From a virus: 36,970 bases of DNA. The position numbers and the translations under genes were made by a program. The DNA lies in the IMG/VR virus record IMGVR_UViG_3300045993_000257, positions 1 to 36,970 of that record; one strand, 5' to 3'. A model generated the notes under the pieces. The model saw only the letters and a list, made by a program, of their open reading frames with translations. It had not been told where the DNA came from and searched no databases. Shown one piece after another: positions 22,461 through 25,000 of the stretch (within the stretch, counting starts at the first letter, position 1; every line of letters starts with the position of its first letter).

Positions 22461-22612
22461 CGGGGCTCCTCGGTGGTGGTGATGGTCAGCACGAATGGGC
22501 CGAGGTAGATGTGGGTGAGGCGGCGCGGCCATGACGGGTGGTGCGACCATGAGGCGCCGAGAAGGAAGCACTTCGGGCTGTTGCGGTTGAAGCGTGCGCT
22601 GTGGCGGGTCAT
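22457..22612 (-). CDS. Small hypothetical protein, 51 aa
   Basis: 51 aa coupled on both sides by ATGA overlaps. Basic, aromatic-rich, with KCFLLGASWSHHPSWPRRL and a hydrophobic TLGPF-like strand (THIYLGPFVLTITT). Unrecognised; reality is supported by double coupling. Confidence 0.65.
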   Translation of the reverse strand: MTRHSARFNRNSPKCFLLGASWSHHPSWPRRLTHIYLGPFVLTITTTEEPR

Positions 22613-22851
22613 GCGGGTTCCTCGTTGTGGGTCTCGCGCTGCTGTGCGGCTCTGTGCGCCTCGTACGCGGCCCGGGGGTCCGAGAGTTCCCACGGCGGGT
22701 CCGCGTCGTCCTGTGGCCCGCTGACGCTCGCCGTAGCCATGTCTGCGGCCCACTGGCTGAGCGCGTCCGCGATGCGCGCCCACTCGGGGTGGCCGTGGGC
22801 GGCGCGGGCGTCGATGATCGCGGCGGCGGCCCGGAGGGTGTCGGGATTCAT
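22609..22851 (-). CDS. Small helical hypothetical protein, 80 aa
   Basis: 80 aa, ATG overlapping the methyltransferase stop (ATGA). Helical N-terminus (DTLRAAAAIIDARAAHG) and acidic, Pro-rich C-terminal half. No family recognised. Confidence 0.7.
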   Translation of the reverse strand: MNPDTLRAAAAIIDARAAHGHPEWARIADALSQWAADMATASVSGPQDDADPPWELSDPRAAYEAHRAAQQRETHNEEPA

Positions 22852-24821
22852 GCGATCAATCCGTCCATGAGTGAGAGCTGTCCGTCCGTCTGCTCTCGTG
22901 GCGGGACGTACTCGCGCCTCGCGGCCTTGGCCTGTTGCTTCGGGTCGCCCGTGCGCCAGGTGGCGAGTCGGCAGTAGTCGGCGCTCATGTCGACGCTCAC
23001 GGCGTGGCGGCCGAGAGCGTGCGCGACGAGGGCGACGGTTCCGGTGCCGCCGAACGGGTCGAGCACGACGGCGGGCCTAGTCGGCGGGGCAGTCGCCCTT
23101 GCATCGGCACTGGTCGTCGCAGCGGTCAGTGCAGTTGCACGCACAGGCTGCACAGTCGTCGCAGGCGTTCCATCCGTCGACGTCGCCGATGCTGTCGGGG
23201 GTCGGTCCGGTGTAGTGGCGGGAATCCATATCGCTCCTTCTTGGGTGCCACAGGCGCACGATTCGCCCGTGATGGCGTGACGTCCGGCTGAGTAGCCGAG
23301 CGTGGATCGCTTCCATGCGGTGTCGTCTCGGCCCATCCGCGACAACTGCTGTGTGGCTGCAAAGTCTTTCTGCTCGACCTCTGGCGCCTCGACGACCGGC
23401 CGTCGTCCCTCGCCGCACGCGGTGCAGATGCCCGAGGGCGACCACCCTTGGATGATGCGGCGCGGGAAAGCCGTAGGGAACGCCGCGAAGTGGTCTATCC
23501 CGAGGTGCTCGGGAACGTGCAGCGGCTCTGTGGGGATCGTCCAGACCGAGCCGGGCCCGTCAGCCTGCGGCGGCCTTCTTTCGCCAGTAGGCGCGGCGGT
23601 CGCTTGCTCGCATGCAGATGCGGCACATTCGGCTTCCGTCGCTTGGCACGACGTAGGTGTTGACGGCGTCGAACTCGTGCCCGTTTCGACAGTGGGTCTT
23701 GGCGGCGTTGATGGATGCCAGTGTCGTTGGTCCTCGCATGAGGTTTTCGCGGACGGTGACGGGCTCGACGTGCCGGACGCAATGCCGGACGCGGCAGAGG
23801 TGGTCGAGGTGGAGCTCGTCGGGCGCGGCTCCGTGCTCGAGCGCGTAGGCGACACGGTGTGCGAGCACTGTCTTGCCGTTGAGCCAGAACTTGCCGTATC
23901 CCTCGGGGGTTCGGCCGGCAGTCCAGAGCCAGCATTCGCCGGACTTGTCGACCTTGATCCAGAACCGTTCGACCCAGTCCACTGCCGCACTCCTGTCAGG
24001 ATTCGTTCGCCTTCGTCAATGGTAAGACTTCCGGTACTTATTGCCGAGAGGACATGCCGCACAACAGATTCGGAGTCGTGCTTGATCTCCCAAACAGACG
24101 ACGGCAACTTGCCGAGCGGGTTCGACGTGTCAAGCGTGTTCGACGGATTCGCCAGCCGAGCCTCACCTAATGCGGCAAGCCCCTGCCAGCGACCACCGGG
24201 CTTGTCTGGCCCTGACTGCTCGCGGATCTCGTCGACCGCGGAGTAGTAGCGCGGCTCCTTCGTGAAGTGAAACCACGTCTCGTGGGAGCGGCGCACTCGA
24301 TCGGTCACCGACTCGGGCAGCCCGTTCGGCTTCGACCAGATCACCTCGGCGCGCAGGATCAGCCCGAGGTCGTCGATGCACCGGATGGCGTAGCGCCACG
24401 GGATGCCGATGAGGGACTTCTCGCGCAGGGCGCCCGGCTCCCACCCATTGCGGCGCATGGCGAAGGTCTGCGGGCGTTGGGTCGGCGTCCGAGAGTCGAC
24501 CACTCGCTCGGTGCGGCTGTCGAGCCCTGCTGTGCGCTGGGCGTACTTGTCGCCCAAGTTGACCCAGATCGACCCGGACGGCTTGAGCACCCGCACCATC
24601 TCGGCAGTCGCAGCGATCAGGGCATCCACGAACTCGGCCTGCGTCGGCTCGTCACCGATCTGCCCCGAATAGTGCTCGCCTCCGTCCTGGTAGGAGCGCA
24701 GCCCGAAGTACGGCGGGGATGTCACGACGAGGTCCACGCTGTCGTCGGCCAGTGGCAGGGTGAGCGCGTTGCCTCGCAGGATCGCGGCGGCGGCCAGGAG
24801 CGTGGCCGGGTCGGGGGTCAT
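22848..24821 (-). CDS. Beta-class DNA methyltransferase interrupted by nested ORFs
   Basis: 657 aa open frame, ATG overlapping the upstream stop. N-terminal catalytic motif IV TSPPY at 34-38, target-recognition region with IPWRYAIRCIDDLGLILRAE, and C-terminal motif I DPFGGTGT near 588, followed by SVDMSADYC; motif IV before motif I marks beta-class N6-adenine or N4-cytosine enzymes. Two stretches are unlike the family: residues about 245-425 and 531-582 are Ser/Thr/Pro/Ala-rich linker-like sequence. In these places another frame encodes an HNH endonuclease and a cysteine-rich protein. Without them the length would be about 425-470 aa, normal for the family. The frame is open throughout, so a full-length enzyme with two odd loops is possible. 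Confidence 0.85.
   Translation of the reverse strand: MTPDPATLLAAAAILRGNALTLPLADDSVDLVVTSPPYFGLRSYQDGGEHYSGQIGDEPTQAEFVDALIAATAEMVRVLKPSGSIWVNLGDKYAQRTAGLDSRTERVVDSRTPTQRPQTFAMRRNGWEPGALREKSLIGIPWRYAIRCIDDLGLILRAEVIWSKPNGLPESVTDRVRRSHETWFHFTKEPRYYSAVDEIREQSGPDKPGGRWQGLAALGEARLANPSNTLDTSNPLGKLPSSVWEIKHDSESVVRHVLSAISTGSLTIDEGERILTGVRQWTGSNGSGSRSTSPANAGSGLPAEPPRDTASSGSTARQCSHTVSPTRSSTEPRPTSSTSTTSAASGIASGTSSPSPSAKTSCEDQRHWHPSTPPRPTVETGTSSTPSTPTSCQATEAECAASACEQATAAPTGERRPPQADGPGSVWTIPTEPLHVPEHLGIDHFAAFPTAFPRRIIQGWSPSGICTACGEGRRPVVEAPEVEQKDFAATQQLSRMGRDDTAWKRSTLGYSAGRHAITGESCACGTQEGAIWIPATTPDRPPTASATSTDGTPATTVQPVRATALTAATTSADARATAPPTRPAVVLDPFGGTGTVALVAHALGRHAVSVDMSADYCRLATWRTGDPKQQAKAARREYVPPREQTDGQLSLMDGLIA
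23077..23229 (-). CDS. Cysteine-rich miniprotein nested in methyltransferase gene
   Basis: 50 aa in the frame offset by two bases from the methyltransferase. AAGGAG lies four bases before ATG 23229. The C-terminal half has ten cysteines in about 25 residues, in C-x2-C-x2-C-x-C-x-C-x3-C-x3-C-x-C-x3-C spacing (CDDCAACACNC, then CRCKGDC). Such density is hard to get as a shadow and suggests a metal-binding, metallothionein-like protein. The methyltransferase frame here reads as Ala/Thr/Pro linker. Function unknown. Confidence 0.6.
   Translation of the reverse strand: MDSRHYTGPTPDSIGDVDGWNACDDCAACACNCTDRCDDQCRCKGDCPAD
23560..23982 (-). CDS. HNH homing-type endonuclease nested in methyltransferase gene
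   Basis: 140 aa, GTG start with AGGAG seven bases upstream, in a frame offset by two bases from the methyltransferase. HNH_3 architecture: CWLWTAGRTPEGYGKFW, VLAHRVAYALEHG, LHLDHLCRVRHCVRHVEPVT (H-H-N type core with cysteines; the usual N is replaced by R/H) and a C-terminal zinc pair (CRNGHEF, CRICMRASDRRAYW). The clear domain proves this is the coding frame here. It resembles a homing endonuclease inserted in a conserved gene. Motifs SVW occur on both sides in the methyltransferase frame, 549 bases apart. Confidence 0.82.
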   Translation of the reverse strand: MDWVERFWIKVDKSGECWLWTAGRTPEGYGKFWLNGKTVLAHRVAYALEHGAAPDELHLDHLCRVRHCVRHVEPVTVRENLMRGPTTLASINAAKTHCRNGHEFDAVNTYVVPSDGSRMCRICMRASDRRAYWRKKAAAG

Positions 24822-25000
24822 CGCTCGTCACCCGGCATGATTCGCAGGCGGTCGAGGTCGAACCACAGCGGGCACATCCCGCGGCCCATCGCCAGCACGC
24901 GCCCTGCGGCTTGGTCGTACTGGATGACCTCGAGCACGGGCGCAGTGACGGTCGGCTCGGTGCGGAAGGTGAACTCGGCAATCAGGCGAGGGACGTTCAC
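24818..25000 (-). CDS. Small beta-rich hypothetical protein, 60 aa
   Basis: 60 aa with GTG start, coupled by GTGA upstream and ATGA downstream. Sequence (RLIAEFTFRTEPTVTAPV, GMCPLWFDLDRLRI) suggests a small beta barrel or ribbon. No family recognised. Confidence 0.7.
   Translation of the reverse strand: MNVPRLIAEFTFRTEPTVTAPVLEVIQYDQAAGRVLAMGRGMCPLWFDLDRLRIMPGDER

Follow-up and report, generated by a model that had tools for sequence, protein, structure and literature searches.

Background

Out-of-frame insertions of HNH endonuclease domains that leave the host frame open have been described in the DNA methylases of actinobacteriophages (Arsenault, Gosselin and Gogarten 2025, PMC11855218). 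The published cases include the ShiLan domain and a different insertion in Pacc40. Their in-frame translation is disordered and no Shine-Dalgarno sequence was found for ShiLan. The window analysed here, the whole 36,970 bases of the IMG/VR record IMGVR_UViG_3300045993_000257, carries a DNA methyltransferase gene with two open reading frames (ORFs) nested in it. The terminase, methyltransferase and HNH relatives point to a phage of Actinomycetota as its source. One nested ORF encodes an HNH endonuclease. The other, the subject of this report, encodes a cysteine-rich peptide of 50 residues and is called here the Cys ORF. It is a small gene that was inserted in a methyltransferase loop whose length varies among relatives.

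A cysteine-rich ORF nested in a methyltransferase gene

The features on which the argument depends are the following:

22848..24821, minus strand: host gene, a beta-class N4/N6 DNA methyltransferase of 657 codons (PF01555, PHROG 67 and fold)
23077..23229, minus strand: nested Cys ORF of 50 aa, with an ATG start, 50 codons and a TAG stop (sequence, codon phase and recoding test)
23234..23239, minus strand: Shine-Dalgarno-like AAGGAG, 4 nt from the ATG, belonging to the inserted DNA and not present in relatives
23077..23079, minus strand: TAG stop of the Cys ORF, formed by the host codons ACT AGG of a conserved loop Thr-Arg
23094..23243, minus strand: inserted DNA, ~150 bp long, at methyltransferase codons ~527-576, defined by alignment with relatives, the borders being uncertain by a few codons

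The peptide, MDSRHYTGPTPDSIGDVDGWNACDDCAACACNCTDRCDDQCRCKGDCPAD, contains nine Cys (positions 23, 26, 29, 31, 33, 37, 41, 43 and 47) rather than the ten counted in a preliminary description of the locus. They span 25 residues in the pattern C-x2-C-x2-C-x-C-x-C-x3-C-x3-C-x-C-x3-C, with CxxC and CxC spacings and acidic residues between them. Over all frames of the window, the open stretch that comes second in Cys density reaches 7 Cys in 25. This composition fits a small metal-binding peptide. The ORF lies wholly inside methyltransferase codons 531-582 in relative frame +2, as does the HNH ORF (23560-23982). The preliminary description was right in this, in the presence of AAGGAG and ATG, and in placing the ORF just before catalytic motif I, where DPFGGTG begins at residue 588. 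It was also right that the methyltransferase frame is stop-free and of low complexity at residues 531-582, which are rich in Thr, Ala and Pro.

The codons that form the TAG are both rare in this phage (ACT 4.9%, AGG 4.6%; product of the frequencies about 0.002) and AGG is found at this position in none of the aligned relatives. If this stop were missing, the Cys frame would continue into the next gene. The pattern is suggestive of selection for termination, although it was spotted post hoc. The gene that follows the methyltransferase (22609-22851, minus strand) overlaps its end by 4 bases and is in the frame of the Cys ORF, and loss of the TAG would fuse the two. RNA folding near the start of the Cys ORF showed nothing unusual (z 0.83).

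Codon phase and direction of derivation

Trusted genes of this phage have a G+C content of 0.66, 0.50 and 0.90 at codon positions 1, 2 and 3. Within the Cys ORF the third-position value (GC3) is 0.84 in the Cys frame vs 0.58 in the methyltransferase frame, and the synonymous-codon score is +20 bits vs -27 bits. Across 473 overlapping 50-codon windows taken from trusted genes, the largest lead of frame 2 over frame 0 was 0.18 in GC3 and 5 bits, compared with 0.26 and 47 bits for the Cys ORF. The HNH ORF shows a similar reversal of codon phase, while the methyltransferase frame has its normal phase upstream of, between and downstream of the two nested ORFs, including in a sliding profile. In a maximum-scoring-segment analysis the switched frame spans 23073-23264 and scores 51.8 bits, while the highest score among 15 trusted genes was 24.3. 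The upstream edge of this segment falls ~35 bases before the ATG, a distance that the method is taken not to resolve.

The direction of derivation was addressed by redrawing synonymous codons while holding fixed either the 52 methyltransferase residues (20,000 draws) or the Cys peptide. With the host residues fixed, nine Cys in 25 were reached in none of the 20,000 recodings (maximum six), and the observed host GC3 of 0.577 was far lower than the expected 0.874 (standard deviation 0.046). With the Cys peptide fixed, its own codon use appeared ordinary (P 0.16) and the host frame was stop-free in 98% of draws, the equivalent figure for the HNH ORF being 7%. The DNA has therefore been shaped as a gene for the Cys peptide, and its composition largely accounts for the host frame being readable. 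The codon-phase and recoding tests together thus reject a derivation of the Cys frame from the methyltransferase, and the Cys ORF is not a chance reading of that gene. The 98% expectation also means that the open host frame at the Cys insert needs little or no selection. The earlier proposal, which read two open nests as a sign of possible selection for overprinting, is accordingly not upheld.

Insertion into a length-variable loop

The insert sits between a CxC motif and APTRPAVVLDPFGG of the methyltransferase. When its C-terminal region was aligned with those of 14 relatives (15 sequences), a gap of exactly 50 residues appeared opposite the window, and none of 66 distinct methyltransferase relatives contains the Cys ORF. 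The CxC motif was recognized in 51 relatives. Its usual distance to DPF is 13 residues, but reaches 19-99 in 12 of the 51, and loop length over the relatives ranges from 9 to 99 residues. The site therefore tolerates changes in length, and the insert of the window is one more such change, but with its own coding frame. That a separate coding sequence has been accommodated within the methyltransferase gene, as first proposed, is supported by the codon phase, by its own ribosome-site sequence and by the comparison with the 66 relatives. Of the further suggestion that the gene tolerates or selects for overprinting, only the tolerance of length change at the loop stands; selection and overprinting do not.

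Ordinary expansion of this loop, together with a chance ORF in the other frame, would agree with the longer loops found at the site in 12 of 51 relatives, several of which are 66-69 residues long and evidently methyltransferase-frame sequence. However, it is contradicted by the reversed codon phase and by the limit of six Cys from any recoding of the host residues, and the insert is unlike the long native loops; we consider this explanation very improbable. The long in-frame loops of seven relatives (L023, L031, L267, L269, L286, L290 and L295) share CACTPYTDHP...REYHxDxW, a recurrent native extension. A frame-shifted origin of the Cys insert from such a loop was rejected, no resemblance being visible by eye.

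True overprinting, in which point mutations create a new gene on existing methyltransferase sequence, is the least probable of the explanations. Both frames are indeed open, but the alignment contradicts it: the stretch is an insertion of ~150 bp missing from all relatives, whereas overprinting would have placed the new frame on older methyltransferase sequence. Moreover, the abnormal codon use is in the host frame, not in the Cys frame. It could also be supposed that unrelated DNA was joined during assembly of a metagenome contig, the window being an IMG/VR virus record and the insert having no known relatives. The reading frame is nevertheless kept on both sides and the composition matches that of the phage, and an artefact seems very improbable. 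No flanking repeats, which would be a sign of an insertion mechanism, were found at the borders of the insert, and no Rfam intron model (group I or II) matched in 22600-24900.

The host methyltransferase

The host protein matches the Pfam N6_N4_Mtase profile PF01555 (4e-34) and PHROG 67. Motif IV (SPPY) lies close to the N-terminus and precedes motif I (DPFGGTG), which is close to the C-terminus. Structure modelling from 32 sequences gave a predicted Rossmann fold resembling the PvuII, RsrI and CcrM methyltransferases. The confidence of the model (predicted local distance difference test, pLDDT) is ~90 or above in the catalytic parts on either side, mostly 39-62 in the Cys insert, and low in both inserts. 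In the model, an extra disordered loop appears compatible with methyltransferase activity, without proving activity. A tblastn search with the C-terminal part of the methyltransferase including the insert gave no match at 1e-5, and the last 74 residues alone gave matches at a laxer limit. Annotated phages therefore hold only distant versions of this C-terminal part.

Searches for relatives of the peptide

A search with the 50-residue peptide, proposed earlier as a check, found no relatives in phages, plasmids, IMG/VR, GTDB genomes, Pfam, PHROGs, NCBIfam or PDB. Against phages and plasmids, tblastn gave no match at E up to 10, although low-complexity filtering may hide Cys-rich relatives; a control query of 46 residues found 190 records, indicating that short queries are workable. 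No Pfam or NCBIfam profile, including those for metallothioneins, matched at E up to 10, and neither did any defence-system model. The single matches of the IMG/VR scan (a tail-sheath-like protein in L002) and of the GTDB scan (a spurious frame in L035) were judged to be due to chance. Degenerate DNA patterns of the Cys spacing retrieved mostly simple repeats among the matches listed, and a pattern for GDxDGW plus two Cys retrieved unrelated proteins only. A stricter Cys pattern gave 23 stretches. Three of them (L436, L440 and L455) are among the few that share C-x2-C-x2-C-x-C-x-C-x3-C; they were rejected as relatives, with nothing convincing outside the Cys pattern. Conservation of the Cys ORF, the lack of which the preliminary description had named as refuting it, is thus not observed: the relatives keep the methyltransferase without the Cys ORF, which is a singleton.

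Stand-alone small Cys-rich ORFs with Shine-Dalgarno-like sites do occur near related methyltransferase genes (L270:4322, L262:939 and L267:3672, all on the plus strand). They have no sequence resemblance to the peptide of the window. Small Cys-rich peptides may be common in these phages.

The neighbouring nested HNH ORF

The second nested ORF is listed below:

23560..23982, minus strand: nested HNH endonuclease ORF of 140 aa, sharing the relative frame of the Cys ORF, hidden-HNH type

It matches Pfam HNH_3 (7e-8) and PHROG 826 (3e-48) and is of the published hidden-HNH (ShiLan-domain) kind. Homologous nested HNH ORFs occupy the same site in two relatives, L003 and L004, neither of which has a Cys ORF. 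The two inserts therefore need not travel together. In L004 a stop lies near the start of the HNH frame while the methyltransferase frame is open, so the L004 copy is perhaps in decay. Immediately upstream of the HNH start, a block at methyltransferase codons 245-284 (about 23970-24089, minus strand; DSxVRxVLSA...LTIDEGERIL) is common to the window and L003. It was modelled as two confident helices (pLDDT 81-88) and possibly belongs to the HNH element. The methylase of the window is probably a different one from those of the ShiLan carriers. Phage Mantra, a named carrier in PMC11855218, has no insert in gp63, its methylase nearest to that of the window.

Discussion

We favour, with some reservation, the view that a small phage gene was inserted together with a Shine-Dalgarno site of its own, is translated into a metal-binding peptide, and has left the methyltransferase readable. 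A pre-existing gene of this type would have entered the length-variable loop before motif I. Since the insert length is divisible by three and the host frame runs through it without a stop, the methyltransferase could still be read, with a disordered loop of 50 residues, and would presumably remain active. Ribosomes initiating at the internal AAGGAG...ATG would produce the 50-residue peptide, and translation from this own ribosome site is most likely. The peptide would probably coordinate zinc or copper through its nine Cys and may be of benefit to the phage.

Several points weigh against this view. The presence of nine Cys is not in itself proof of metal binding, and no family model matches the peptide. 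The gap of 4 nt between AAGGAG and the ATG is short. Finally, the Cys ORF is a single instance whose peptide has no relatives in any of the searches.

The insert could instead be a passenger or a fossil, either a gene that once worked elsewhere and is now unused, or one of two inserts that crippled a dispensable methyltransferase, which stays readable as high-G+C DNA has few stops. The singleton status of the Cys ORF would agree with this, as would the open host frame, expected by chance for the Cys insert (98%) if less so for the HNH ORF (7%). A methylase with a hidden HNH insert has also been reported to be non-essential in related phages (PMC11855218). On the other hand, neither the Cys frame nor either catalytic half of the methyltransferase is broken, and each keeps a normal codon phase; ribosome-site sequence, ATG and stop are also all present. 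We regard this as an unlikely but serious alternative to a working inserted gene. A more specific idea, that HNH-invaded methyltransferases serve as landing sites for non-nuclease mini-genes with ribosome sites and that the Cys gene is cargo spread alongside the HNH, seems to us improbable.

Comparison with known systems

Bacterial metallothioneins of the SmtA and MymT types are very small proteins with many Cys in CxC and CxxC spacings. The Cys peptide has the same small size, Cys richness and spacings, but differs in having no sequence match in Pfam, NCBIfam or PDB. As in viral overlapping genes made by overprinting (reviewed in PMC8227390), two reading frames share one stretch. Here, however, the Cys frame arrived with inserted DNA, and it is not the ancestral frame that shows normal codon use.

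The closest likeness is to the ShiLan-type insertions. In both cases the insertion is missing from uninvaded homologs and flanked by conserved host residues, and a separate ORF lies in another frame while the host frame has no internal stop. In contrast, the Cys ORF is only 50 codons long and encodes no nuclease (no Pfam, PHROG or NCBIfam match), whereas the HNH ORF of the same window does encode one. The Cys ORF also has a recognisable Shine-Dalgarno site, whereas none was found for ShiLan. The disjunct distribution of ShiLan-type insertions, suggestive of homing, is not seen for the Cys insert, found in the window only, while the HNH is also present in L003 and L004.

What is new, with one case so far, is that a phage methylase harbours an out-of-frame gene for something other than a nuclease. 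The hidden methylase insertions published to date encode endonucleases, which explains their own spread; a non-nuclease nest differs in this respect, and the Cys ORF is likely a second type of cargo for gene-inside-gene insertions. If so, nesting in a tolerant loop would be a more general route by which small genes are gained, and one that gene finders barring nested ORFs would overlook. The codon-phase test used here can be applied to all actinophage methylases.
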